Part shown: positions 13,819 to 27,846 of the stretch, piece after piece | Numbering within the stretch: the first letter of the stretch is position 1 | Layout of the letters: the number at the start of each line of letters is the position of its first letter | Source: Leptolyngbya sp. Prado105 | GTDB lineage: Bacteria; Cyanobacteriota; Cyanobacteriia; Leptolyngbyales; Leptolyngbyaceae | Reading direction: 5' to 3' | Assembly: GCA_025454375.1 (NCBI GenBank) | Contig: JALOOO010000005.1 | Coordinates: 1 to 53,493 of the forward strand | Length of the DNA: 53,493 nucleotides | Made by a program: the position numbers and the translations under genes | Notes under the pieces: model-generated | Seen by the model: only the letters and a program-made list of their open reading frames with translations | The model's database searches: none | Told to the model about the DNA's origin: nothing

Positions 13819-15135
13819 TTAACGAGACTGCGCTTGCACAGGTTGAACGGGGAGCAATTGATTGAGTAACGCTTGCTTCGGTTGATCGATCGCGACCCAA
13901 TCATCCTTTAAGATCCCACCAGTATCCTGGCTATTCGGATTCCAACTCCAATAGGCAAATCCCAATTGGTTGCGCTTCAAGTAATCGACAAATCGACGCT
14001 GCCAAATTCCCTCTTTCGATTTCTCATCAATCTGCCGCCCGCCGAATTCCCCTACAAAAATCGGCGCAATCTTTTGACGTGCAATATAAAAGAATCCTTG
14101 CTCCCACCGCGTTGTCATATTACGTGGGAAGTCGATCGCACTAAACCAAGGCTGCTTAAAGACTCCTTCCCCATATTCGTGCGGCGAGTAGACTACTCGA
14201 TTTCGCACCGCCAAACGAACTGGAAATCGCTTCACTCCTTCTAAATTGCCGCCCATCCAGTGCTTCAATCTCTGTCCTGGCACATTATTCTCAACGCCTT
14301 CAACCACGATTAACCAATTGCGGTTCACCTTTAAAATGGCATTTCCAGCCCGTTCCGCCGCCAATCGCCAATCCGTTGCTTTATCGCCTGTCCCCCAACT
14401 TGCTTTCCCATGCGGCTCATTCTTCAAATCCGCCCCGATCACATTCGACTGATTCTTATACCGTTCTGCCAGTATCGTCCAAGTTGAGATCCAATCCTCT
14501 TCTGTAAACCCATCCCCATACCAAAGCTCGGGAATGCGCTGATTATTTAACCGATGGCTATCGAGCAGCACCATCAACCCTTGCCGCCCCGCCTCTTGAA
14601 TCACAGCATCCATCACCTCGATCGGCTTTTTCCCCTGTAATTCCCGATTACTCCCAATCTCAAAATTAATTCCACTCACCTCAGGTGCTCGCAAGCCTTG
14701 CACCGAGTAAGGCAAGCGAATCACGTTGTATCCCAGCCCTTTAATCTGAGCCAGCATCTCCTTATAATCCCGCACCCAAAGTCCGTGAGGTGAATTTGTC
14801 TCCGTCTCAAGCCCAAACCAATTCACACCCTGAAGCACGACAGGTCGCTTTGTCGCATCCAAAATTTCAGCCCCTCGCGTCGAAAGCGGAGGTTGAATTT
14901 GCGAAGTCGTTTGAGCTACAGAAGGCAGCAATTCAGGTATAGCAAAACTAAAAAGAATGGCAGCGATCGCAGAAACACAAAAAATCGCATAGAGCAGTTT
15001 ACGGCTCAATCGTCGATACTGAACCGACTGGGCTAAGAGTCCACGCAGTTTGGTGATAAAGCCGTCAATTTGCTGATTGAGTCTCATCATTTCGGGAATG
15101 TTTGAAAAAGGAAACTTGATAAAGCGGAGGAACAC
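13819..15135 (-). CDS. Glycoside hydrolase family 5, membrane-anchored endoglucanase-like
   Basis: 438 residues from GTG 15135 (ATG 15090 is an alternative start that keeps the membrane segment). A cytoplasmic N-terminus is followed by one membrane helix (about 47-70) and a TIM-barrel GH5 domain (about 88-420). Visible motifs: VLQGVNWFGLET at strand 1, RLPYS, LLDSHR, the acid/base Glu in LKNEPHG (E240), SPHEYG (319-322) and the nucleophile Glu in FVGEFGGR (E363). The domain resembles cellulase A-type endo-beta-1,4-glucanases, though beta-mannan or mixed-linkage activity cannot be excluded. The anchor suggests periplasmic action on a glucan in or leaving the envelope. It lies about 2.4 kb before the cellulose-type operon, in the opposite direction. 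Confidence 0.9.
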   Translation of the reverse strand: MFLRFIKFPFSNIPEMMRLNQQIDGFITKLRGLLAQSVQYRRLSRKLLYAIFCVSAIAAILFSFAIPELLPSVAQTTSQIQPPLSTRGAEILDATKRPVVLQGVNWFGLETETNSPHGLWVRDYKEMLAQIKGLGYNVIRLPYSVQGLRAPEVSGINFEIGSNRELQGKKPIEVMDAVIQEAGRQGLMVLLDSHRLNNQRIPELWYGDGFTEEDWISTWTILAERYKNQSNVIGADLKNEPHGKASWGTGDKATDWRLAAERAGNAILKVNRNWLIVVEGVENNVPGQRLKHWMGGNLEGVKRFPVRLAVRNRVVYSPHEYGEGVFKQPWFSAIDFPRNMTTRWEQGFFYIARQKIAPIFVGEFGGRQIDEKSKEGIWQRRFVDYLKRNQLGFAYWSWNPNSQDTGGILKDDWVAIDQPKQALLNQLLPVQPVQAQSR

Positions 15136-15574: not shown

Positions 15575-16330
15575 ATGTCTTCACTTGCAAAACTCTTCGT
15601 ACCTGCTGTCCTTACTGCTGGAGCGGTCTTCTCAGCCTTCGCGATTCCTCTAACGCTATATGGTTCACACCCCCTTGCCATCCAACTCAAGGAGGAACGT
15701 GTGTTCGAGGGACCCTTGAGAGACGTTGCGCCTCCTTATCTTGCGATCGCTGGCTTTCTCAGCTTTGGAACGAGCCTAACCGTTTGTGCCGCTCTCGGCT
15801 GGAGACGGGCTATCCAAGACGCAGAATTCGCCGACGCGCAACTTCTAGCCGCAGAGAAACAACTGAAGCAAAAAGAAGCTCAGTTACAAGACACACTAAT
15901 GTCTGAAGCTTATCTGACAGATTCTGGGTTGAAATTTTTCCTAGATGAAGACATGCCGATCCCGACTGCTGGAGCCGCGAAGTCTGTCATCCTGCAACCC
16001 ACTACACCTACCCATAGGGAAAAGTTCTCCACAAATTCAATGTCCCAAGCGCGAACGACTGCACCCCTTCATGCAGCACAAGCCTATCTAGGCTTCTCAC
16101 GTCCGACTTCTGCCGCTCAGCCTAGCACAGCTTCCAATGAAGCGGATGCGATCGCCAAAATGCAAAACCTCCAAAGCCAACTTCAACAAATCATGGCTGA
16201 GATTGAAACTATTCAAAGCACCCTGCGGGTTGAATCTACTTCTCCCTCAGCAACCGCAACAAATGCCCCCTTAAACCATCTCGCTCAGCGCTTCCAAGCA
16301 CTTGATCCAGCTTGGACAGTTCAGAAGTAA
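15575..16330 (+). CDS. Two-helix membrane protein with coiled coil, unknown function
   Basis: 251 residues, not matched to a named family. Two membrane helices (about 8-30 and 54-75) are followed by a basic WRR turn and a charged helix (80-110, KQLKQKEAQLQ) predicted to be a coiled coil. A Ser/Thr/Pro/Ala-rich linker (135-185) leads to a second heptad-like helix (188-215, MQNLQSQLQQIMAEIETIQ) and a short tail. The plan suggests a membrane-tethered scaffold or envelope protein. It lies between the GH5 gene and a lipoprotein gene near the cellulose-type operon, so a surface role is possible but not shown. Convergent with the lipoprotein gene. Confidence 0.65.
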   Translation: MSSLAKLFVPAVLTAGAVFSAFAIPLTLYGSHPLAIQLKEERVFEGPLRDVAPPYLAIAGFLSFGTSLTVCAALGWRRAIQDAEFADAQLLAAEKQLKQKEAQLQDTLMSEAYLTDSGLKFFLDEDMPIPTAGAAKSVILQPTTPTHREKFSTNSMSQARTTAPLHAAQAYLGFSRPTSAAQPSTASNEADAIAKMQNLQSQLQQIMAEIETIQSTLRVESTSPSATATNAPLNHLAQRFQALDPAWTVQK

Positions 16331-16458: not shown

Positions 16459-17154
16459 TTAACGCATCAATGCTTTTGCTGGAATCGCAGCATCAGTCTG
16501 CTCCTTCACATCAGTTGCTTTATTCACGGGCTGAACTGCAACCTTCACAACTGTTATATCAGTTTTTTGAGTCGCGACTTTAGTAGTTGGCGGCTCGATC
16601 GAAATGAACTGTTCCGTCTGTAAATAGCTTTTCCCATCTGCGGTGAACTGCACACTCGTCGCTTGATTTCCTTCTTTCGATTGAACCTCGATCGAACTTC
16701 CTGATGGATCAGTGACTGCTAGAAACCGCACTTGATTATCGGGTTGAAGTTTGAGGGCTAATGCTTGATTACTCTGCTGCCAAGTCTCCAAAGCTCCATT
16801 CTTAGAGGACTGCAAAAGATTCAGTAAGGTCTGCCATTTCCCTTTTTCAACGCTCACTTGATCCCTTGCTAGGATCGAGTAAGACCGTTCAGAAGCGATT
16901 TTTGCATCTCGTCCCGGAATTTGCAGTGCCCGGATTGCTTGAACTGTAATCAGAGTCTGTTCTGGCAAATTCGTTTGACCTGAAACTCTGTAAACGCCTG
17001 GTTCTCCGGTCGCCTCAACCTGCATCGATAAATTCGTTGCAGGTTGTTGAGAACTGCCAAGGAACGGAATTTGGGCACAGCCTGTACAGAGAATCAGCAA
17101 CGAGATCAGTGTGCTACTCGCACATTTACGGAGAAACGTTTGAAACCTTTTCAT
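16459..17154 (-). CDS. Putative lipoprotein, unknown function
   Basis: 231 residues. The N-terminus has a basic start, a hydrophobic stretch and a lipobox-like ILCTGCAQ, so Cys-26 is the probable lipid-attachment site (the -3 residue is Cys, not the usual Leu). The mature part looks beta-rich: VEATGEPGVYRVSGQTNLPEQT reads like a small Ig-like or carbohydrate-module fold (split here as EPGVYRVSGQTNLP). The C-terminal 50 residues are Thr/Val/Lys-rich and low in complexity. It is divergent from the cellulose-type operon across 397 bases, so a shared control region is possible. No function can be assigned. Confidence 0.65.
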   Translation of the reverse strand: MKRFQTFLRKCASSTLISLLILCTGCAQIPFLGSSQQPATNLSMQVEATGEPGVYRVSGQTNLPEQTLITVQAIRALQIPGRDAKIASERSYSILARDQVSVEKGKWQTLLNLLQSSKNGALETWQQSNQALALKLQPDNQVRFLAVTDPSGSSIEVQSKEGNQATSVQFTADGKSYLQTEQFISIEPPTTKVATQKTDITVVKVAVQPVNKATDVKEQTDAAIPAKALMR

Positions 17155-17551: not shown

Positions 17552-19159
17552 ATGTCAGATCTATCCCGGTTTCCTAAATTAATTTCTCTCGTGTCTTGGG
17601 TCGCCTTCTCGTCGATTGTGACGGTACTTGCTGCGAATGCGAGTCCCAGCAATCCAACCGAAGCAAATTCCTCAACCTCCAAGTCTCCTCAAAAGATTGC
17701 CGCCGTTTCTCAACCCAGCCAGCCATCTGCGCTGATCAAGAAATCGCAACCCATGAGTCAGAGCGAAGCAGACTTGATCCAACAATTATCAGGTCAAGCA
17801 ACATCCGTGAAGTCCATTGCGACCTCAACGCCTAGCTTCACCCCTCCAACTGCCGAAACCGCTCCAATATCTGCGATCGAGATAAATCAAAGCAGCCAAC
17901 GTTCTGAGCCGAATCAACCGTCCTTAGTTGCTTCTACTCTCTCTAGCAGTGACGTAGGGACAAACTTAATTTCCAATCAACGCCTTAAGGCTCCAACCTC
18001 ATCGATTCGAGGTATTAGCCCAGACGCATTTAAGACTCCGATCGCATTTCAATCGACTGCAACACCTACAGAAATCACAACGACCCAGAATAAAACAGCC
18101 TTTCTCGCACAATCCGGTCGCAATGCTGATACTTTAGGCAGATCAAATCGTCCCTTAATTCGTAGTACAGCGCTCACTCCTCCAAGTTTGACATTTCAGG
18201 GTGTCTACCTGCATCAAGGTGACCAAACCTCAGCACGGGCAAGACTTTATGGAATATATCCATTAAGTCCAAGTGCCTTAGTTGGAGCATCGATAGATGT
18301 GACAACAGGTCGAGGGTTCACAGATACGCCAGACGATGGCTTTAATGTCAACGAACTGTACTTTGCAACTTCGCCGCGCGACATTCCCAACTTGCGGTTT
18401 GTGGTTGGTCAAATTGATCTCACTTCTTATTTCGATCGCAATAGCTTTGCAAAAGACGGGGCAACTCACTTCTTCAATCCAATTTTTCAAACCAATCCAG
18501 CCCTCAGTGCAACAGGGATTGCATCTCGTCCCGGCGCACTCGTCAACTTCAGCCTGAGCGACAACATCGAAGCAAAAGCTGCTGTGTTCTCCTCCTCAAA
18601 AGGATTAAGTGATTTTGCATTAGATGGCTTTGCTGGTGAATTAGGAGTTCGCTACGGCAATCTAATCGTGCGTGGCACATACGCAACGGATCGCGATTCT
18701 GGTTCAAACAGTGGGTTTCAAGAAATCTTCCAACTGAGCCGAGGCGGAGGTCAAACTGGATTGCTAAGAGGCGATCGAGAACAAGCCTACGGTGTCAATG
18801 CGGAAGTCTTCATTCCTAACCTGAAGATGGGAATCTTTGGGCGGTATGGACGCTATAACAACCTTGACCTAGATGAAAGTGGCGACACCTTCAGTGGGGG
18901 CATCACCTTCCTCGACCTATTCAGTCCTGACGATCGTTTAGGACTAGCTTATGGTCGTGCTTTATCGAATGACACACTTAGACGCAATAGTGGTGACGAA
19001 GTGCCAGATGCTTTGGAGTTGTTCTACGACTTCAAACTTCTGTCAAACTTACGTGTGGGCTTTTCTGTCCAACAGCGTAATAACTTCTCAGAAACTATTG
19101 CGGGTGTTCGTGTGAAGACCGAATTTGATGTAACACCCAGAGGAAGACTGGTTCAATAA
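17552..19159 (+). CDS. Outer-membrane beta-barrel protein (OprB-like), first gene of cellulose-type operon
   Basis: 535 residues. An N-terminal signal peptide (hydrophobic 9-27, then ANASPS) is followed by about 170 residues of Ser/Thr/Gln/Pro-rich linker and then a beta-barrel domain (about 210-535) of alternating hydrophobic strands and polar loops, e.g. GVYLHQGDQTSARARLYGIY (20 residues) and LRVGFSVQQRNNFSETIAGV. The last strand ends in KTEF before a short PRGRLVQ tail. The overall look is that of the carbohydrate-selective OprB-type porins. As the next gene (14 bases on) is a TPR protein lacking a barrel, this is the best candidate for the outer-membrane pore that BcsC normally supplies by itself (inference). 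Confidence 0.75.
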   Translation: MSDLSRFPKLISLVSWVAFSSIVTVLAANASPSNPTEANSSTSKSPQKIAAVSQPSQPSALIKKSQPMSQSEADLIQQLSGQATSVKSIATSTPSFTPPTAETAPISAIEINQSSQRSEPNQPSLVASTLSSSDVGTNLISNQRLKAPTSSIRGISPDAFKTPIAFQSTATPTEITTTQNKTAFLAQSGRNADTLGRSNRPLIRSTALTPPSLTFQGVYLHQGDQTSARARLYGIYPLSPSALVGASIDVTTGRGFTDTPDDGFNVNELYFATSPRDIPNLRFVVGQIDLTSYFDRNSFAKDGATHFFNPIFQTNPALSATGIASRPGALVNFSLSDNIEAKAAVFSSSKGLSDFALDGFAGELGVRYGNLIVRGTYATDRDSGSNSGFQEIFQLSRGGGQTGLLRGDREQAYGVNAEVFIPNLKMGIFGRYGRYNNLDLDESGDTFSGGITFLDLFSPDDRLGLAYGRALSNDTLRRNSGDEVPDALELFYDFKLLSNLRVGFSVQQRNNFSETIAGVRVKTEFDVTPRGRLVQ

Positions 19160-19173
19160 TTCACCTGAATTTC

Positions 19174-21519
19174 ATGAGTACACGGAAACACCCTGCTAAG
19201 ATGTCTCGCGTTAAGAAACAGTTCACGCTCTCTCTGTGCCTCGGATGGCTGCTTACCGGGACACCTCTGCTGACTTTGGCAGAAGCTCAAATGGCTATCG
19301 CTCAAACGCAAAACATCCCCGCCGATGTCCGTCAAGCCTACACACTGCTTGGTAAAGGTTGGGTGGATGATGCGATTCAAGCTTTCAGGCAATCGATTCA
19401 GCGCTATCCAGAATCAATTGAGGCAAAGCTAGGACTAGCAATTTCGCTGCGCCGAGCAGGTCGCGACTCTGATGCGTGGCAAGCTTATCAACGAGTTTTG
19501 CAGCAAGATCCAAGCAATCAACTAGCTTTGAAAACAGTTGGAATTTTAGCAGGTTTCAAACTGGAGTGGCAGAAACAAGGAATTGATGCCTTAACAACTT
19601 TGCTACAAATCAATGCAGGAGACACAGAAGCTCGTGCCCAACGTGCCTTACTATATGGCTACCAAGGTCGATTTGCTGATGCACTTGCTGACTATGAAAT
19701 CGTTCTGCAAGCGAATCCAACGCCAGAAGTATTGCTAGGAGCCGCTCAAATTTATACCTATGCAGGGGATACTCAGAAAGGTCTGGAATTGTTTGAGCGA
19801 TATCGCTCTCGCACCAATGCTCAAATTACCGGAAATGCAGCGATCTCTTATGCTCGCGCCTTGCGTAAAGCAGGTAATAACACTCAAGCAATTCAGATTC
19901 TAGAAGGACAACTTCCGAGGCAAATGAATGCTTTTGGAATTCAAGTCAGATCTGAACTCTCTCAAGCGTATTTAGCAAATAAACAGTCGGCTCAAGCACT
20001 TGCAATTCTAGATCCATTGCGCGATCGCAACGATTCTCGCCTTCCTTTAGCTCGTGCCTTAAATGAACTGGGTAGACAAGAAAACCGCTCAGAACTTTCA
20101 GCACAAGCAGGAGCGCTTTACAGACAAGTCTTAGCAGAAACATCGAATCCTTCTCCGACATTACTTCGAGAAATTGCAGATGTTTTGAGTGGAATTCCTC
20201 AAGAGCGGCAAACGGCTCTACAAGTCTATCGGCAGTTAGTGCAGCAACAACCTGACAATCAGACTCTCGTAATCCAGCAATTAGCTTTAGAGAGTCAGCT
20301 TGGAACTCTGAATCAAAGTGAAATTCGTCAACGTTTAAGACCGATTCTGCAAGCGTTGCCCAATGAACCTGCTCAACAATTTGCGATCGCTCAAGCCTTA
20401 GTCCGTTTAGAACCCGATCCGGAGTTCTTCGATGTATATGAGGCATTCATTCAAAGAGGAATCAATGAACCCTTTCTGAACTTCCGATTCGCTCAACTTC
20501 TAATCGAACGCAATGAATTTGAAGCGGCAAAGACTGCTTTATCACGCTATCAATCAACTCCAGTGGGCGCACGAGACAAAGCTCCAGAGTTACTCTTTGC
20601 AGAACTCGATCGACGACAAGGCAAGTTAGAATCCGCAGCGAAACGGTATGAAGCATTAATTGCGAATGCCTCGATCAGCGATGATTTACAAGCAGGCGCA
20701 ATCCGCTCTCTTGCAGGGTTAAGGCTTTCTCAGAATCGGTTCGGGGATGCCTTGAAATTGTACGATCGCTTAATCGCAGACAATCCTGACGATTTACAAC
20801 TTCAACTTGGTCGCACTTCTGTTGCCTACCAAGCCAAGCAAATTTCAGAGCGCGAAGCAGAAGTTGCACTCGCAAGATTCTTGCAATCTCGTCCTGCTGA
20901 AACCCCTTCTGAACTCTATACATTAGTTGGAATTCTACCGAGTGATGCAAGTCGAGAACCTTTGTATAACGCCTTAATTGAAGCTGATCCAACGAATGTT
21001 CCAGTTCAGGTGCGCTTGATTCAACTCCTAGCAAGTCGCGATCCAATGCAGGCAAGAGCGCAAGCGAATCGACTGATTGCAAAAGTTCGTCAAACTGCAT
21101 CCGACGATCGCACAAATCTCTCTCTTCTATTCCTCAAAGCTCAATTAGAACAGACACTAGGAAATAGCAACCGTGCAGAAGATGCTTATCAAGCCATTTT
21201 GAAAGTTGAACCAGAGAATTTAGATGCGCTTTCTGGGTTAGGAGGTGTGAAGTTTCAGCAGCGCCAATTCGCCTCTGCTGAAAACATTTACTCTCAAATC
21301 TTAGAAATGAATCCAGACAATTTGATCGCTCAGCAGTCGCTAGCTGAACTTTCTGTCGCTCAAGGTCAACCTCTAGCAGCACTGGATCAGTTTGAACGAC
21401 TGAAAATTCAACAGAGCGAGCAAGGGGCATCAGATTTAGACCTAGAGCAACGAATTCAAAAACTTCAGGAAGGAATGCTGCAACAGCGCGGTTTCCAACC
21501 ACCCTGGGAGCGTTATTAA
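19174..21519 (+). CDS. Secreted TPR protein, BcsC-like scaffold without barrel
   Basis: 781 residues with a signal peptide (about 15-45, ending AIAQTQ). The rest is a chain of tetratricopeptide repeats, e.g. AIQAFRQSIQRYPESIEAKL, ALADYEIVLQANP, ALKLYDRLIADNPDDLQLQL, AEDAYQAILKVEPENLDALS, ENIYSQILEMNPDN. The N-terminal two thirds of BcsC has this plan, but the C-terminal barrel of BcsC is absent and the protein ends FQPPWERY. Periplasmic TPR scaffolds of this type link the inner-membrane synthase and BcsB to the exit pore and bind the polymer. It is 14 bases after the barrel gene and 7 bases before the GH8 gene. Confidence 0.82.
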   Translation: MSTRKHPAKMSRVKKQFTLSLCLGWLLTGTPLLTLAEAQMAIAQTQNIPADVRQAYTLLGKGWVDDAIQAFRQSIQRYPESIEAKLGLAISLRRAGRDSDAWQAYQRVLQQDPSNQLALKTVGILAGFKLEWQKQGIDALTTLLQINAGDTEARAQRALLYGYQGRFADALADYEIVLQANPTPEVLLGAAQIYTYAGDTQKGLELFERYRSRTNAQITGNAAISYARALRKAGNNTQAIQILEGQLPRQMNAFGIQVRSELSQAYLANKQSAQALAILDPLRDRNDSRLPLARALNELGRQENRSELSAQAGALYRQVLAETSNPSPTLLREIADVLSGIPQERQTALQVYRQLVQQQPDNQTLVIQQLALESQLGTLNQSEIRQRLRPILQALPNEPAQQFAIAQALVRLEPDPEFFDVYEAFIQRGINEPFLNFRFAQLLIERNEFEAAKTALSRYQSTPVGARDKAPELLFAELDRRQGKLESAAKRYEALIANASISDDLQAGAIRSLAGLRLSQNRFGDALKLYDRLIADNPDDLQLQLGRTSVAYQAKQISEREAEVALARFLQSRPAETPSELYTLVGILPSDASREPLYNALIEADPTNVPVQVRLIQLLASRDPMQARAQANRLIAKVRQTASDDRTNLSLLFLKAQLEQTLGNSNRAEDAYQAILKVEPENLDALSGLGGVKFQQRQFASAENIYSQILEMNPDNLIAQQSLAELSVAQGQPLAALDQFERLKIQQSEQGASDLDLEQRIQKLQEGMLQQRGFQPPWERY

Positions 21520-21526
21520 CTTAACG

Positions 21527-22765
21527 GTGACTTACTCTATGCTGCGATTGCTTGTCCCCCTTACGATTATCGGATTCATTGGCATCGGTGGCTTAGTGTC
21601 TTGCACCGTTCCGCCTCCGCGATCGACTTTTGCTTCTACTGTAGACGCTCCTGATCATCGTGCCTTACTGACTGAGAGTTGGACAGCCTATCGAAAGCGA
21701 TTCATTCAAGCAGACGGTCGAGTCATTGACTGGGAAGCAACAGGTCGATCGACTTCAGAAGGTCAAGCCTACGCAATGCTTCGAGCCGTGATTGCAGATG
21801 ATCCTGAAACGTTTGAGCGAACACTTCATTGGGCAGAAACAAATCTTCAACGGCAAGATAAATCCAAGACCCCCATTGATTCTCTTTGGGCTTGGAAATG
21901 GGGACAAGATGCGGGTGGAGGATGGGGAATTCTTGATCCGAATGTCGCAAGCGATGCTGATATTGATGGCATTACTGCATTAATTTTGGCATCGCGACGT
22001 TGGCAGAGAGCAGACTACTTAGCTCTAGCTCGCACCAAGTTAAAAGATCTCTGGACGAAAGCGACGGTCACGCTTCGCGCCGATGAGAAACGATATTTAC
22101 TTCCCGGTGCTGTAAATCTATTCCAGCGCAACGAAAAGCTCAAAGCAAACCCCTCATATCTCGCCCCTTATGCCTTTCGTCTCTTTGCCCAAGTTGATTC
22201 AGAGCGAAATTGGCTGAGTCTTGTCGATAGTAGCTATCAGATGTTAGAGCAATCCTCGAAGGTCTCACCTGTAGGCTTACCGAGTGATTGGATTGCCCTC
22301 GATCCCAAAACTGGTCAATATAGTGCATTAGATCCAGGCAGTCCATTGATTACCCAATATGGTTTTGATGCAAGTCGAGTTTGGTGGCGCGTTGCCCTAG
22401 ATGCCACCTGGTTCAATGAACCCAGAGCGAAATCCTATCTGAGATCGCATCTTGGGCATCTCAAACAGATGTGGCAAACTCAGCGCAAAATCCCTGCCAA
22501 GCTGGATTTAGAAGGACGTGCGGTTGTGGATTATGAAGCCACCTCACAATACGGCATGTTATATGCTGCATTCCGAGTCATTGATCCCGCGATCGCTCAG
22601 GAAATTCTCACTGAGAAGTTACTGCCCTCGTATCGTAATGGATTCTGGGATAACGATTCCGCTTACTACTCTCAGAATCTCGCCTGGTTTGGACTGCTCC
22701 CTCCAAATGTCATGGCGGCTTATCTTACAGACCCTACTCAAGCTGCAACTATATCCCTCCCATGA
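21527..22765 (+). CDS. bcsZ: Glycoside hydrolase family 8 endoglucanase, BcsZ-like lipoprotein
   Basis: 412 residues. The N-terminus is a hydrophobic stretch followed by the lipobox LVSC (Cys-26), so it is probably an outer-membrane- or membrane-attached lipoprotein, unlike soluble periplasmic BcsZ of Escherichia coli. The GH8 (alpha/alpha)6 domain shows VIDWEATGRSTSEGQAYAM with the catalytic acid Glu (E78), the SLWAWKW segment, SDADIDGITALILASRRW, and YGFDASRVWWRVALD around the expected catalytic Asp. BcsZ-type enzymes hydrolyse beta-1,4-glucan and are needed for proper cellulose export. The stop overlaps the next start as ATGA, which implies translational coupling to bcsB. Confidence 0.9.
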   Translation: MTYSMLRLLVPLTIIGFIGIGGLVSCTVPPPRSTFASTVDAPDHRALLTESWTAYRKRFIQADGRVIDWEATGRSTSEGQAYAMLRAVIADDPETFERTLHWAETNLQRQDKSKTPIDSLWAWKWGQDAGGGWGILDPNVASDADIDGITALILASRRWQRADYLALARTKLKDLWTKATVTLRADEKRYLLPGAVNLFQRNEKLKANPSYLAPYAFRLFAQVDSERNWLSLVDSSYQMLEQSSKVSPVGLPSDWIALDPKTGQYSALDPGSPLITQYGFDASRVWWRVALDATWFNEPRAKSYLRSHLGHLKQMWQTQRKIPAKLDLEGRAVVDYEATSQYGMLYAAFRVIDPAIAQEILTEKLLPSYRNGFWDNDSAYYSQNLAWFGLLPPNVMAAYLTDPTQAATISLP

Positions 22766-25284
22766 ACAAACGGTTTTCAGATCAGTCCTCGCAGTCGGGG
22801 CATCCCCATCGATTCTCTAAAACAATGCTGAAACGTGCATTGATTCTCTGCTGTGCAGGGTTAGTTACTGGACTTGCGATCGTGCTGCTGCACACACCGC
22901 AACCAATTTCAGCCCAAAGCGTTCAGAAACAGGAAGATCAACTGATTCGGGACTTCAAACTCCCATCAACGCCTGTCGAAGCACCTATCTATCGTCCACA
23001 AGCACCTGTCTACCAGCCTGAGCCTGCTCCAGAAGCACCCCCAGCGAGTGAACCTTATTACGAGCCTGCACCTGTAGAATCGGCTGCACCTGTAGAATCG
23101 GCTGCACCTGTAGAATCGGCTGCACCGCAACCAGAGAAAAAATCTGAGCCAGTAAAAGCTGCGAATACAGCGCCATTGAGCAGGTATGTTTTAGAATTCA
23201 ACCGGAGTCCTGCGATCGGAAACCGTTTCCGCCTACAAGGGACTTATGCAGAAGCGCGAGTTGGCTTCACACGACCCAAAAACTGGAATGTCAAAACCGC
23301 AAAAGCGATGATTCGATTCCAGCACTCTCCAGCGATCGTGGCAGACCAATCGAATCTGATTGTCCGCGTCAACGATACCAGCATTGGCAGTGTTCCACTG
23401 AACTTGAAAAATGCTCAAATCGGTGAAGCAGTTGTCAATATTCCAGCAAATCTAATTCAGGATTACAACGAAGTCACGCTTGTGGCTCAACAAACAAATT
23501 CACCAACTTGTGCAAATCCTGACGATAAAGCACTTTGGTCAGAAGTTTTGCCTGACTCAAAAGTCGTCTTGGATTATCAGTCTCAACCCGTAGCATTAGA
23601 TTTTAGCCGCTATCCTCTGCCGTTTTTTGATCATCTCGGCTTAGAGACCACTCGGCTAAACTATCTCCTTCCTGGACAACTTAACGAATCCTGGCTCACT
23701 GCAACGAGTCGTTTTCATGCTCATTTCGGACGATTAGCTGATTTTCGATCGCTCGAAACTAGCCTTGTGAAAGACGCGAAGAAGTTTCAATGGAACGATC
23801 GCTTAGTCATTATCGGAACACCGAAAGATCAACCGACTCTCAAATCGATGAAGTTGCCACTCAACATCACGAACGATCAGATTATTGATGGTAACAAAGC
23901 TCCACTGCCTGAGAATGTGGGTGTGTTGATGCTAGCAACGCTTAACAATGGCGGTATTCCGGTGCTGATTGCCTCTGGAAATAGTCCAGAAGCTGTAGCG
24001 AAAGCAGTTCAATTCCTGGTACAGCCAAGCAACAGCCAAATTGGAGCCGGACAAGTTGTCTTAGTGCAAAATGTGGCTGAAATTGAAAGTCCGAATCCTC
24101 GAAATTGGGAGCGCTACTTGCCCCTCAAAGACTCATTCCAATTGAGCGCTTTGAAAGGATTGGATAACAAGCCATTCAAAGATGTAACAGTGCGGGGAAC
24201 TTCTGCGCCGCCTGTCCAGTTTCAATTTCGAGCATTGCCTGACGATCGTATGTTACGCGGTAGCTCAATGAACTTGAAATATAGCTACAGCGCTCAAGTG
24301 AATACGCGCAAATCGTCGCTCTCTGTACGAATTGATGGGGTCACGATCGGAAGCAAGAAACTAACTTCGGACAATGGTGGAAAAGACGAAACGTTCAATG
24401 TTGATTTGCCGCCGAATTTGATTAAGTCAGATTCTGTGATTGATGTCGCATTTGATCTTTATGCAAAAGAATCTTTGAAGTGTGGTCAGGTCAGCGATCA
24501 GCAGCTTTGGGGAACTGTTCACAGTTCGACAGATTTCAATGTCAAACGTGAAAATTCTGTTGAGTTACCCGATCTCAAATTGTTGACCACAGGTTATCCA
24601 TTTACCGGGCCCCAAGATCTCTCCAAAACGGCGATCGTGGTTCCCGACTCTCCAACTGAAGCTGATGTGATGACGGTGTTGAAATTTAGTGAGCGTTTAG
24701 GGCGACTTAGCCAAGCTCAATCGGTCAAGCTAGATGTTTACAAGCCTGCAAGTTTAACTGAACAAGTCAAGCAAGATCGACATCTTGTTGGAATTGGGAC
24801 GCGAGATCGCTTCCCAGTCAAAGAAATGCTAGAAGCAAATAGTGGCTTCCGTTTGATGGAGTCTTTTGCACGGGAATCGGGTAAAGAGAAGATTAACGTT
24901 CTGCCAGATCAAGGTGGCGTAATCAAGAGCATGATGTCGCCTTGGAATCGCGATCGCGTTCTCCTTGCACTGACGGCTCAGGCAGATTCAGGCTTGAAGC
25001 AAGTTCAAGACGTTTTTAGCAACGACCTTTGGTTCTATCAACTCAAGGAAGATACGGCTCTGATTAGTACTAATCAGGTCAATCCTTCGCCTTTCGATTC
25101 CAATGCTTATCAAATGCAGTTTGTGAGCCAGTCAGAGCGTCGTCGAATTGAAGATACCAGCGTTGTCAGCAAGGCAAGGCAGTTTTTGCAAGAACAATGG
25201 TATCTTCTTCCAGTTGGGATTATCGGTAGCTCGGTGATGCTCTACGGAATTGGTCAGCTTTTCCTCAAACGGGTTGGAGGCTAG
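22762..25284 (+). CDS. bcsB: Cellulose synthase regulatory/periplasmic subunit BcsB
   Basis: 840 residues. BcsB wraps the nascent glucan in the periplasm and anchors to BcsA through its C-terminal membrane helix. A signal sequence (about 24-51, ending PISAQS) is followed by a Pro/Glu/Ala-rich linker (70-145) that includes three copies of PVESAA. The beta-rich carbohydrate-binding and flavodoxin-like domains follow, duplicated as in BcsB (RVNDTSIGSVPLNL and RIDGVTIGSKKLTSD mark the two jelly-roll copies). A C-terminal helix (about 811-833) ends in FLKRVGG. It overlaps the GH8 gene by 4 bases and precedes bcsA by 6 bases. The proline-rich linker is longer than I would expect for the proteobacterial protein. 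Confidence 0.9.
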   Translation: MNKRFSDQSSQSGHPHRFSKTMLKRALILCCAGLVTGLAIVLLHTPQPISAQSVQKQEDQLIRDFKLPSTPVEAPIYRPQAPVYQPEPAPEAPPASEPYYEPAPVESAAPVESAAPVESAAPQPEKKSEPVKAANTAPLSRYVLEFNRSPAIGNRFRLQGTYAEARVGFTRPKNWNVKTAKAMIRFQHSPAIVADQSNLIVRVNDTSIGSVPLNLKNAQIGEAVVNIPANLIQDYNEVTLVAQQTNSPTCANPDDKALWSEVLPDSKVVLDYQSQPVALDFSRYPLPFFDHLGLETTRLNYLLPGQLNESWLTATSRFHAHFGRLADFRSLETSLVKDAKKFQWNDRLVIIGTPKDQPTLKSMKLPLNITNDQIIDGNKAPLPENVGVLMLATLNNGGIPVLIASGNSPEAVAKAVQFLVQPSNSQIGAGQVVLVQNVAEIESPNPRNWERYLPLKDSFQLSALKGLDNKPFKDVTVRGTSAPPVQFQFRALPDDRMLRGSSMNLKYSYSAQVNTRKSSLSVRIDGVTIGSKKLTSDNGGKDETFNVDLPPNLIKSDSVIDVAFDLYAKESLKCGQVSDQQLWGTVHSSTDFNVKRENSVELPDLKLLTTGYPFTGPQDLSKTAIVVPDSPTEADVMTVLKFSERLGRLSQAQSVKLDVYKPASLTEQVKQDRHLVGIGTRDRFPVKEMLEANSGFRLMESFARESGKEKINVLPDQGGVIKSMMSPWNRDRVLLALTAQADSGLKQVQDVFSNDLWFYQLKEDTALISTNQVNPSPFDSNAYQMQFVSQSERRRIEDTSVVSKARQFLQEQWYLLPVGIIGSSVMLYGIGQLFLKRVGG
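23071..23124 (+). repeat. Three perfect 18-bp tandem repeats inside bcsB
   Basis: The unit CCTGTAGAATCGGCTGCA occurs at 23071-23088, 23089-23106 and 23107-23124. It encodes PVESAA three times within the linker after the signal peptide. Perfect identity suggests recent copy-number change. Confidence 0.9.
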
Positions 25285-25290
25285 ATTAAC

Positions 25291-27846
25291 ATGGCAAATT
25301 CATCTCCAAGACGCTATCAAAGTAAAGGACAAAGAGTTCTTGCTTGGTTCGTTGAACTCATTCCGAATTTCTTCGATCGACTTTTCCAAAAAAACAGCGC
25401 TCCTCAACTTGTGCTACTGATGGGACTACTTTTAGTCCTGTCGATTCCTCTCATCATCACTCCTCTGGAGATTTGGCAGCAAGGAATTGTTGCAGTTCTG
25501 CTTGTGGGATTAGGTTGGGGAGTGACGGACATTGAACACAAACATGCGAAAGGTCAGACTAGCGAGTATCTCCACCTTTTTATGGTGTGGCTTAGTCTAA
25601 TTACAACGTTTCGCTATCTCTACTACCGCACCAATTACACGCTTAATTTGACAAGTGGTTGGCTCGATGCGACTTGTAGTGTGCTGCTCTTTTTAGCAGA
25701 ACTCTATGCGATCATGACGCTTGCTTTAGCGTTCTTTCAAACGCTGAAACTCAAAGAGCGTCAGTCTGTTGATTTAGCGACCATTCCCGAAAATCAATGG
25801 TTTAAGGTTGATATCTACATTCCGACTTACAGTGAGGATGTGGAAATTGTTCGCAAGACAGCATTGGGAGCATTAGCGATCGACTATCCCGCAGACAGAA
25901 AGAGAGTCTACATTCTAGATGATGGTCGAGCAGAAAAATTTCGCGATCGGCGCGAACAGCTACGTCAAATGTGTGATGAGCTAGGGTGTACGCTTCTAAC
26001 TCGCGATAATAACGATCACGCGAAAGCTGGCAATATCAATACGGCATTGCGTCGGACAGGGGGTGATCTCGTTCTAATTCTTGACTGTGACCACATTCCC
26101 GTGCGTCACTTCTTGAAAGACACCGTTGGCTTCTTCTACAATCCTAAAATTTCTCTCGTCCAAACCCCTCACTGGTTCTATAATCCTGATCCGTTTGAGC
26201 GGAACTTGCAGACAGGTGGGAAGATTCCGGTTGGGAATGAACTGTTTTACAAAGTGCTGCAAAAAGGAAACGACTTCTGGAATGCTGCATTTTTCTGCGG
26301 TTCTGCTGCGGTAGTTCGGAAATCACATTTATTAGAAGTCGGCGGAATTGCCGTCGAAACTGTGACGGAAGACTGTCATACCTCTTTAAGATTGCATTCT
26401 TTGGGCTATGAATCTGTTTACTATGACAAAATCATGGTAGCGGGACTTGCACCCGAGAAATTCTCAGCTTATGTGGGTCAGCAGATTCGCTGGGCGCGAG
26501 GCATGGCACAGATTCTTCGGATTGAGAATCCTTTGTTTAATCCGAAATTGAAACTGTCGATCGGACAACGAATCTGTTACTTCAGCGCAACGTCTCACTT
26601 CTTTTACGGGTTTCCTCGATTGATGTATGCTCTAGCTCCAGCGCTGTTTCTGGTGTTTGGGATCAATCCAATCCGAGGTCTAGGGTTAGAGACACTTGCT
26701 TATGCACTGCCACATTTCTTTGTTTCAACCTACGCGAACTATATTACTTACAAGAATGTACGGTTCTCGTTCTGGAATGAGATTTATGAGTTTGCAATGT
26801 CCTTCCATGCGGGGATTGTTACGGTGCTAGCATTAGTCAATCCGAAATTGGGGAGCTTCAACGTTACTGATAAGGGATTGTCTGTGACGAAGCGGAGTTT
26901 TGACTGGGGTTCGGCAAGAGCTTTAGCAGTCGTGACATTGCTTGTTGTGGCGGCGATCGCGGCAGTTCCGTTCTGGCTGATTCTGCGTCCTCAAGATGCG
27001 GAAGCCGTGTTAGTTAACATGGTTTGGAGTCTATTTAACTTGATGCTGATTATTTCAGCATTGCTCGTTGCATTAGAACAACCGCAGTTGAGACGGGCAC
27101 ATCGACTTGATCGTAAGTTGTCTGCGACACTTTACAGCAATGGTGCAACTGTTCAAGGATACACCCAGAATGTGAGTGAAACAGGCTGCCAGCTAATTGT
27201 TGAGAGTTGGGCAGATTTTCTTGAAGACGCAGAAATCGAACTGGTTGGAGATTATGGCGCACGGGCATTTGTAAAAGGTCAGATTATTCGGATCGTTCCT
27301 GTGAGTGAAACGCAGTCGATGTTATCGATCGAATTTATTGAACTCACCCGCGCTCAGCTTGATGCACTCAATATTGTGATTTACTCAGATGTACGGGAAT
27401 GGTACTCGCAACAACGGGAAAATGTAGACGATCCGATGCAGTCCTTCAAGTTTATTGCGGGAAGTTTCTTTCGATCGTTCCGTCAACGGAATGCTGAACC
27501 CGGTAATGTTACGAGAGTTCGGAAAACTATCAATGCTCATGCCCAGCTTTATTGGAGAGGACAATTCTACTCAGGGATTGCAACTCAGATTAGCAATCGC
27601 AGTTTGAGATTGGAAATTCAATCAGACGCGATCGAAGATGTCAGACTTCTAGAGTACTACCAGCCTTTGGTTGGATTGCTTCTGAGTCAGACGGCTGATG
27701 AATCTCTGCCGAATCGATTACTTGCAAGGGTGGAGCGAGTTGACATGATCATAGGCGATCGCACAATTGTCGAATTGCAATTCCCAGAGCAGGTGATGCA
27801 GCGACAAGAAGGCAAAATCAAACAGCTTGTCGATACGCTGAATTAG
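25291..27846 (+). CDS. bcsA: Cellulose synthase catalytic subunit BcsA with PilZ and extra PilZ-like tail
   Basis: 851 residues. Family 2 glycosyltransferase that polymerises UDP-glucose into beta-1,4-glucan and threads it through its own membrane channel. Visible parts: N-terminal helices (about 35-155); the GT domain with DDGR (about 210), DCDH (265, normally DADH), FFCGSAAVVRK, TED (359-361) and QQIRW (397-401); channel helices; the gating loop FNVTDKG (523-529), diagnostic for BcsA; and a PilZ domain with RRAHR (601-605) and NVSETG (627-632), the two c-di-GMP-binding motifs. A further segment (about 742-835; RKTINAHAQLY, ISNRSLRLEI) resembles a second PilZ fold without binding residues. 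Last gene of the operon, followed by a terminator. High sequence agreement with BcsA rather than with the shorter cyanobacterial CesA/XcsA forms is my reading. Confidence 0.93.
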   Translation: MANSSPRRYQSKGQRVLAWFVELIPNFFDRLFQKNSAPQLVLLMGLLLVLSIPLIITPLEIWQQGIVAVLLVGLGWGVTDIEHKHAKGQTSEYLHLFMVWLSLITTFRYLYYRTNYTLNLTSGWLDATCSVLLFLAELYAIMTLALAFFQTLKLKERQSVDLATIPENQWFKVDIYIPTYSEDVEIVRKTALGALAIDYPADRKRVYILDDGRAEKFRDRREQLRQMCDELGCTLLTRDNNDHAKAGNINTALRRTGGDLVLILDCDHIPVRHFLKDTVGFFYNPKISLVQTPHWFYNPDPFERNLQTGGKIPVGNELFYKVLQKGNDFWNAAFFCGSAAVVRKSHLLEVGGIAVETVTEDCHTSLRLHSLGYESVYYDKIMVAGLAPEKFSAYVGQQIRWARGMAQILRIENPLFNPKLKLSIGQRICYFSATSHFFYGFPRLMYALAPALFLVFGINPIRGLGLETLAYALPHFFVSTYANYITYKNVRFSFWNEIYEFAMSFHAGIVTVLALVNPKLGSFNVTDKGLSVTKRSFDWGSARALAVVTLLVVAAIAAVPFWLILRPQDAEAVLVNMVWSLFNLMLIISALLVALEQPQLRRAHRLDRKLSATLYSNGATVQGYTQNVSETGCQLIVESWADFLEDAEIELVGDYGARAFVKGQIIRIVPVSETQSMLSIEFIELTRAQLDALNIVIYSDVREWYSQQRENVDDPMQSFKFIAGSFFRSFRQRNAEPGNVTRVRKTINAHAQLYWRGQFYSGIATQISNRSLRLEIQSDAIEDVRLLEYYQPLVGLLLSQTADESLPNRLLARVERVDMIIGDRTIVELQFPEQVMQRQEGKIKQLVDTLN

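Follow-up and report, generated by a model that had tools for sequence, protein, structure and literature searches.

The described systems that most resemble the locus treated here are those in which an outer-membrane barrel and an array of tetratricopeptide repeats (TPR) together serve as exporter of a polysaccharide. In the BcsA-B-Z-C cellulose system of E. coli the exporter is BcsC, whose barrel has 16 strands. In alginate export, TPR scaffold and barrel are two proteins, AlgK and AlgE, AlgK being a lipoprotein (PMC9734138) that is listed with Sel1 repeats, while BcsC, PgaA and AlgE have jointly been assigned barrels of 16 to 18 strands (PMC9601211). The EpsX/EpsY translocons also export polysaccharide through a separate barrel with a periplasmic partner, there an 18-strand AlgE-like barrel and an OPX protein of a Wzx/Wzy pathway (PMC9601211). 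For cyanobacteria, a 2015 survey of the phylum found no BcsC_C domain in any strain that it covered and BcsB in only very few, and proposed that the synthases likely work with different proteins (PMC4594306); five BcsC-type barrels, e.g., alr3754 of Anabaena 7120, are reported from other cyanobacteria (PMC4365693). A 2025 review describes cyanobacterial cellulose secretion as poorly defined; the one model that it gives, XcsAB-TolC, is untested, and the cyanobacterial operons are said to lack bcsB (PMC12430437). Loss of BcsC, with an unknown exporter, is reported from some alphaproteobacteria as well (PMC7112194). Here we describe a five-gene block of Leptolyngbya sp. Prado105 located in a stretch of 53,493 nt (assembly GCA_025454375.1, contig JALOOO010000005.1, positions 1 to 53,493, forward strand; the whole stretch is called the window below). 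We consider it quite probable that this block encodes a complete, synthase-dependent line of cellulose export with two proteins in place of BcsC: a porin of the OprB family and a free TPR superhelix in the periplasm.

A five-gene block in reversed order

The open reading frame (ORF) listing of the window gives, on the forward strand, an outer-membrane barrel protein, a TPR protein, a GH8 enzyme, BcsB and BcsA, separated by 14, 7, -4 and 6 bases. An earlier note, made from the letters of this DNA, had described this block with the same gaps as the mirror image of bcsA-B-Z-C; the ORF coordinates and the Pfam and NCBIfam matches bear out the former, and comparison with the E. coli K-12 record, where the order is bcsA-B-Z-C, the latter. 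The same genome holds a second copy with all five genes on contig C360, and 63 of the 68 named loci that can be assessed show this order too (see below), so it is not due to chance. A third, lower-scoring synthase lies on contig C190. Compared with E. coli, the same four functions are thus met in reversed order, with a barrel of the OprB family instead of BCSC_C and with the TPR on their own chain. The XcsA-XcsB(HlyD)-TolC model likewise includes a cyanobacterial cellulose synthase with PilZ (PMC12430437), whereas the block has BcsB rather than an HlyD-like partner, and a dedicated barrel and TPR protein in the operon; none of the nine proteins tested against Pfam in and around the block was HlyD-like.

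BcsA combines GT2 domains with PilZ (Pfam) and scores narrowly above the curated cut-off of the NCBIfam CelA model TIGR03030 (702.2 vs. 699.1 bits). It contains the catalytic patterns DxD, TED and QxxRW, FxVTxK of the gating loop, and the c-di-GMP pattern of PilZ, RxxxR...NxSxxG; the catalytic, gating-loop and PilZ patterns occur in 63 of 63 BcsA ORFs longer than 800 aa from the 80 loci defined below. BcsB matches PF03170 (E 1.7e-100, 337.6 bits against a cut-off of 21) and the GH8 protein PF01270 (E 7.7e-42, 144 bits against 24; both Pfam). Since the latter remains below the NCBIfam cut-off for the BcsZ equivalog (180 vs. 299 bits), we regard it as a GH8 enzyme of BcsZ type and not as a curated BcsZ equivalog. 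Among 67 GH8 proteins, SEGQxYA is found in 60, [YF]DAxR in 62 and a lipobox in 36, the window protein carrying a lipobox-like LVSC at residues 23-26, as read from the sequence. BcsA, BcsB and GH8 of the window are all homologous to solved chains.

Two observations concern the BcsA C-terminus. The last 150 residues of the window protein, after PilZ, look by eye like a second, degenerate PilZ-like domain, with no profile match seen. In the second BcsA (locus L003, 10347-12935, contig C360) PilZ is followed by PF02577, a bifunctional-nuclease domain, and by a UVR motif; this extension is probably an assembly chimera, because the window BcsA is without such a tail.

A porin-type barrel and a separate TPR protein as a probable replacement of BcsC

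The earlier note had spoken of a BcsC split into two proteins. Two separate proteins are indeed present, TPR array and barrel being encoded by separate genes in the window and not in one chain as in BcsC, but the idea of a split did not survive: hhalign shows no relation between this barrel and that of E. coli BcsC (probability 0.1%), which led us to reject it as a BcsC fragment. For the same reason it is well supported that a recruited porin and a free TPR protein have taken the place of BcsC, and that BcsC was not split. A fused TPR-barrel protein was likewise rejected, with 0 barrel ORFs among the 80 loci matching the TPR query, and so was a BcsC elsewhere in the genome, one of the counter-cases of the note: the BCSC_C barrel domain PF05420 found no match in this assembly, which is 93% complete. 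Over 388 cyanobacterial genomes, PF05420 gave weak partial matches in only 7, covering about 64-99 of its 336 positions, and four of these were barely above the cut-off.

The barrel protein consists of a signal-like N-terminus, a Ser/Thr/Gln/Pro-rich linker and a 340-aa barrel, which in the predicted model has 16 main strands and is closest in fold to OprB; AlgE, in comparison, is 18-stranded (PMC9601211). The barrel alignment had no match among PDB sequences. Because the window's own barrel gives no match to PF04966, the OprB assignment holds for the barrel family, of which 51 of 57 members match with E values up to 0.01 (best 2.5e-12), along with 13 of 22 homologues of a diverse set at E 1 and 8 of 9 bcs barrels in a separate test (L035 being the miss). 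With OprB and the cyanobacterial SLH-OprB porins the bcs barrels share family, fold and the loop motif DRNSFA, but they differ in showing no SLH domain that we could find, in their long low-complexity linker, in their linkage to bcs genes and in forming a group apart in an unrooted tree built from 11 of the 22 rows of alignment A1. When the bcs-barrel profile was run against the OprB-type ORFs of this genome, it returned only the SLH-OprB porin that has its relatives next to clpB, and on this ground we rejected the barrel as an ordinary porin. By sequence kinship and predicted fold, the bcs barrels are a divergent clade of OprB-type porins and not a piece of BcsC, and the porin was apparently recruited once. 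The suggestion of the note that the barrel may be a recruited porin was upheld by the PF04966 matches in the family and by the predicted 16-strand fold.

Conservation in the barrel is highest in the loop that connects strands 5 and 6, at the site of the constriction loop L3 of porins. The linker, rich in Pro, Gln, Ser and Thr, has a median length of 243 residues (range 102-878); the longest barrel ORFs of the 80 loci, 1277 (L119) and 1229 residues (L123), are both from Moorena. Near the start of the linker, E-x-x-[FL]-I-Q-Q is present in 48 of 77 homologues against 0.9 expected, a pattern written after viewing the sequences and hence not an independent test; three of the 80 loci were left out of this count (L045 and L079, which have no N-terminus, and L110, with a changed anchor). 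Besides A1, we used alignments A2 (the window and 56 of the 79 loci that could be used) and A3 (window plus 45 of 73).

The TPR protein of the window matches TPR families in Pfam and is predicted to form a long helical-repeat superhelix of 43 helices (predicted local distance difference test score 88.8, predicted template modelling score 0.61). The 50 fold matches listed for it do not include BcsC, which excludes nothing. A lipobox was found in 0 of 73 TPR proteins of such blocks, whereas AlgK is a lipoprotein (PMC9734138). Among the most conserved segments of the TPR protein is the C-terminal tail RGFxPxW, at the position where the BcsC barrel would follow its TPRs, and this may be the tail by which the TPR protein docks on the barrel, as its placement and conservation in the sequences suggest. 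RG[FY]xPxW is found in 88 of 94 TPR ORFs, again with a pattern written after viewing the sequences and so not as an independent test. Four of the six misses are short or broken pieces; the other two (L125, L126) come from secondary clusters without a barrel, and since their genomes are related, both losses may be a single event. The TPR protein of a third barrel-less cluster (L124) keeps a variant of the tail.

Conservation across cyanobacteria and the neighbouring genes

A scan with the barrel alignment, one genome per species, yielded 184 confirmed stretches, and the best 80 were analysed; all 80 are cyanobacterial by title, the nearest being Phormidium tanganyikae FI6-MK23. Sixty-eight of them have at least 9 kb downstream of the barrel and are called assessable. 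TPR, GH8, BcsB and BcsA are all present in 63 of these 68, in the same order in 63 of 63, and the order is kept in named loci from Leptolyngbya-like lineages to Nostoc, Calothrix, Scytonema and Moorena. GH8 is absent in three assessable loci (L060, L115, L120). In the 12 loci with less DNA past the barrel, the TPR gene is still visible in ten and no partner in two. The note had asked whether the block is conserved in other cyanobacteria, and these loci show that it is; the note's counter-case, an ordinary porin never found beside bcs genes, did not hold, barrel orthologues adjoining bcs genes across the class.

In a survey of the class (388 genomes, the best 150 places each for BcsB and barrel, two halves of a broken barrel counting as separate rows), the BcsB places were spread over 104 genomes and the barrel places over 109; a strong BcsB occurs together with the barrel in 103 of them, BcsB alone in one and the barrel alone in six (p about 1e-85, a value that ignores kinship; 12 families involved, counted from the tables). 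At 113 of the 150 BcsB places a barrel lies 2.1-5.3 kb upstream on the same strand. At E 0.001 the barrel profile finds some match in 200 of the 388 genomes; those of the weaker matches that were examined are ordinary porins. In a draw of 117 genomes from the phylum, 7 matched at E 1e-30 or better. These 7, like every match listed, belong to the class of the window; other classes were hardly tested.

Upstream of the block (counts in Table 1; 62 loci with enough upstream DNA, strictly upstream positions), a GH5 cellulase is possibly associated with it, and two unnamed proteins may belong to the cellulose system; the 251-aa protein is found anywhere in the locus in 46 loci.

Table 1. Features of the five-gene block and its upstream neighbours in the window.
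Feature	Position	Strand	Remarks
GH5 cellulase	13819..15135	-	upstream in 27/62 loci
Unnamed 251-aa protein, hydrophobic N-terminus	15575..16330	+	upstream in 45/62 loci
Unnamed 231-aa protein, signal-like N-terminus	16459..17154	-	upstream in 57/62 loci
OprB-type outer-membrane barrel protein	17552..19159	+	535 aa
EADLIQQ, window copy of E-x-x-[FL]-I-Q-Q, near linker start	17765..17785	+	read from sequence
Barrel domain used in alignments A1 and A2	18137..19156	+	
Strand 5-6 loop, at the site of L3	18419..18523	+	
Periplasmic TPR protein	19174..21519	+	781 aa
Conserved C-terminal tail RGFQPPWERY of TPR protein	21487..21516	+	
GH8 endoglucanase, BcsZ-like	21527..22765	+	412 aa, GTG start
BcsB	22762..25284	+	840 aa
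BcsA with PilZ domain	25291..27846	+	851 aa

A proposed export line and its alternatives

In the export line that we propose, BcsA would polymerise UDP-glucose upon binding of c-di-GMP to its PilZ domain and BcsB would receive the growing chain, which the TPR protein, bridging periplasm and peptidoglycan, would guide outwards, while the GH8 enzyme would trim or clear chains. Cellulose likely leaves through the barrel, where it would pass the conserved L3-type loop, and barrel and TPR protein could be joined by the RGFxPxW tail or by the barrel linker with E-x-x-F-I-Q-Q. With somewhat less confidence than for the export line as a whole, we favour the view that an uptake porin was turned once into a dedicated cellulose-export channel for cyanobacteria with BcsA and BcsB, the TPR scaffold docking via its C-terminal tail.

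Several findings weigh against the proposed line. For the window barrel itself, Pfam and NCBIfam give no family match, OprB included; DRNSFA also occurs in ordinary SLH porins and is therefore not cellulose-specific; and the TPR protein, whose matches in sequence and fold are all to generic TPR, resembles BcsC only as such a protein. Of the assessable loci, L073 has BcsB and BcsA without TPR and GH8 genes, and L108 barrel and TPR without BcsB or BcsA. No barrel lies within 9 kb of 37 of the best 150 BcsB places, many of which are on other contigs; five secondary bcs clusters (genomes G057, G143, G126, G032 and G135; loci L124-L128) are without a nearby barrel, those of G032 and G135 also without a TPR gene, and each of the five genomes has a barrel elsewhere. 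Barrel and BcsB are about 27-28 kb apart in G188 and, by coordinates, in G182 and G355. On plasmid pMIC7113.02 the barrel-TPR pair, its barrel annotated as a hypothetical protein, faces away from a BcsB and its glycosyltransferase about 5 kb off. Finally, of the 124 genomes that show some BcsB match, 20 fall below the best-150 line; their BcsB matches are all weaker (best E 1e-4 to 5e-25), they lack a strong barrel, and they may use something other than the barrel. They belong mostly to families f5, f14, f16, f26 and f6, with one in f13.

OprB porins are carbohydrate-selective channels, and the barrel might accordingly be a porin for sugar uptake, taking back the cello-oligosaccharides that the GH8 and GH5 enzymes release, with cellulose leaving elsewhere, e.g., through a TolC-like channel. 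That the constriction-type loop is its most conserved part and that cellulases are encoded within the operon and close by would fit such a role, which we nevertheless consider unlikely, as the barrel is nearly obligately paired with a strong BcsB, adjoins a TPR protein and not an uptake transporter in most loci, and has a long variable linker where ordinary porins have their SLH region, while no other exporter was found among the tested proteins around the block. Quite improbable to us is a barrel that acts not as a channel but as surface anchor or assembly factor of a cellulose sheath, like Wzi for capsules: the linker could serve as a tether and some bcs clusters do without a local barrel, yet the predicted fold is that of a porin, and the operon would then be left without an outer-membrane channel.

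A variant compatible with our exporter proposal, and as such rather unlikely, keeps the machine as described and changes its product to a different or modified beta-glucan. Polymer chemistry cannot come from sequence, and the GH5 enzyme and the two unnamed proteins encoded upstream might alter the product; on the other side stand the catalytic patterns of BcsA and its score, however narrow, above the cut-off for UDP-forming cellulose synthases. Hardly credible, in turn, is a neighbourhood that is due to chance or pure inheritance without shared function. Gene order is vertically inherited in many lineages and our counts are not corrected for kinship, but the order persists from Leptolyngbya-like to Moorena loci, co-occurrence is near-complete over about 12 families, and this one genome has two clusters with all five genes.

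In the literature searched, which was available in part and did not cover the main cellulose-operon review, no description of an OprB-type barrel with BcsAB was found. The barrel-TPR gene pair is offered as a concrete, testable exporter candidate in named strains. If the proposed export line is true, a family of import porins would have been converted to polymer export, and the two parts of BcsC would be replaceable independently of each other. The pair of porin and TPR protein is a likely answer to the question of how many cyanobacteria manage without BcsC.

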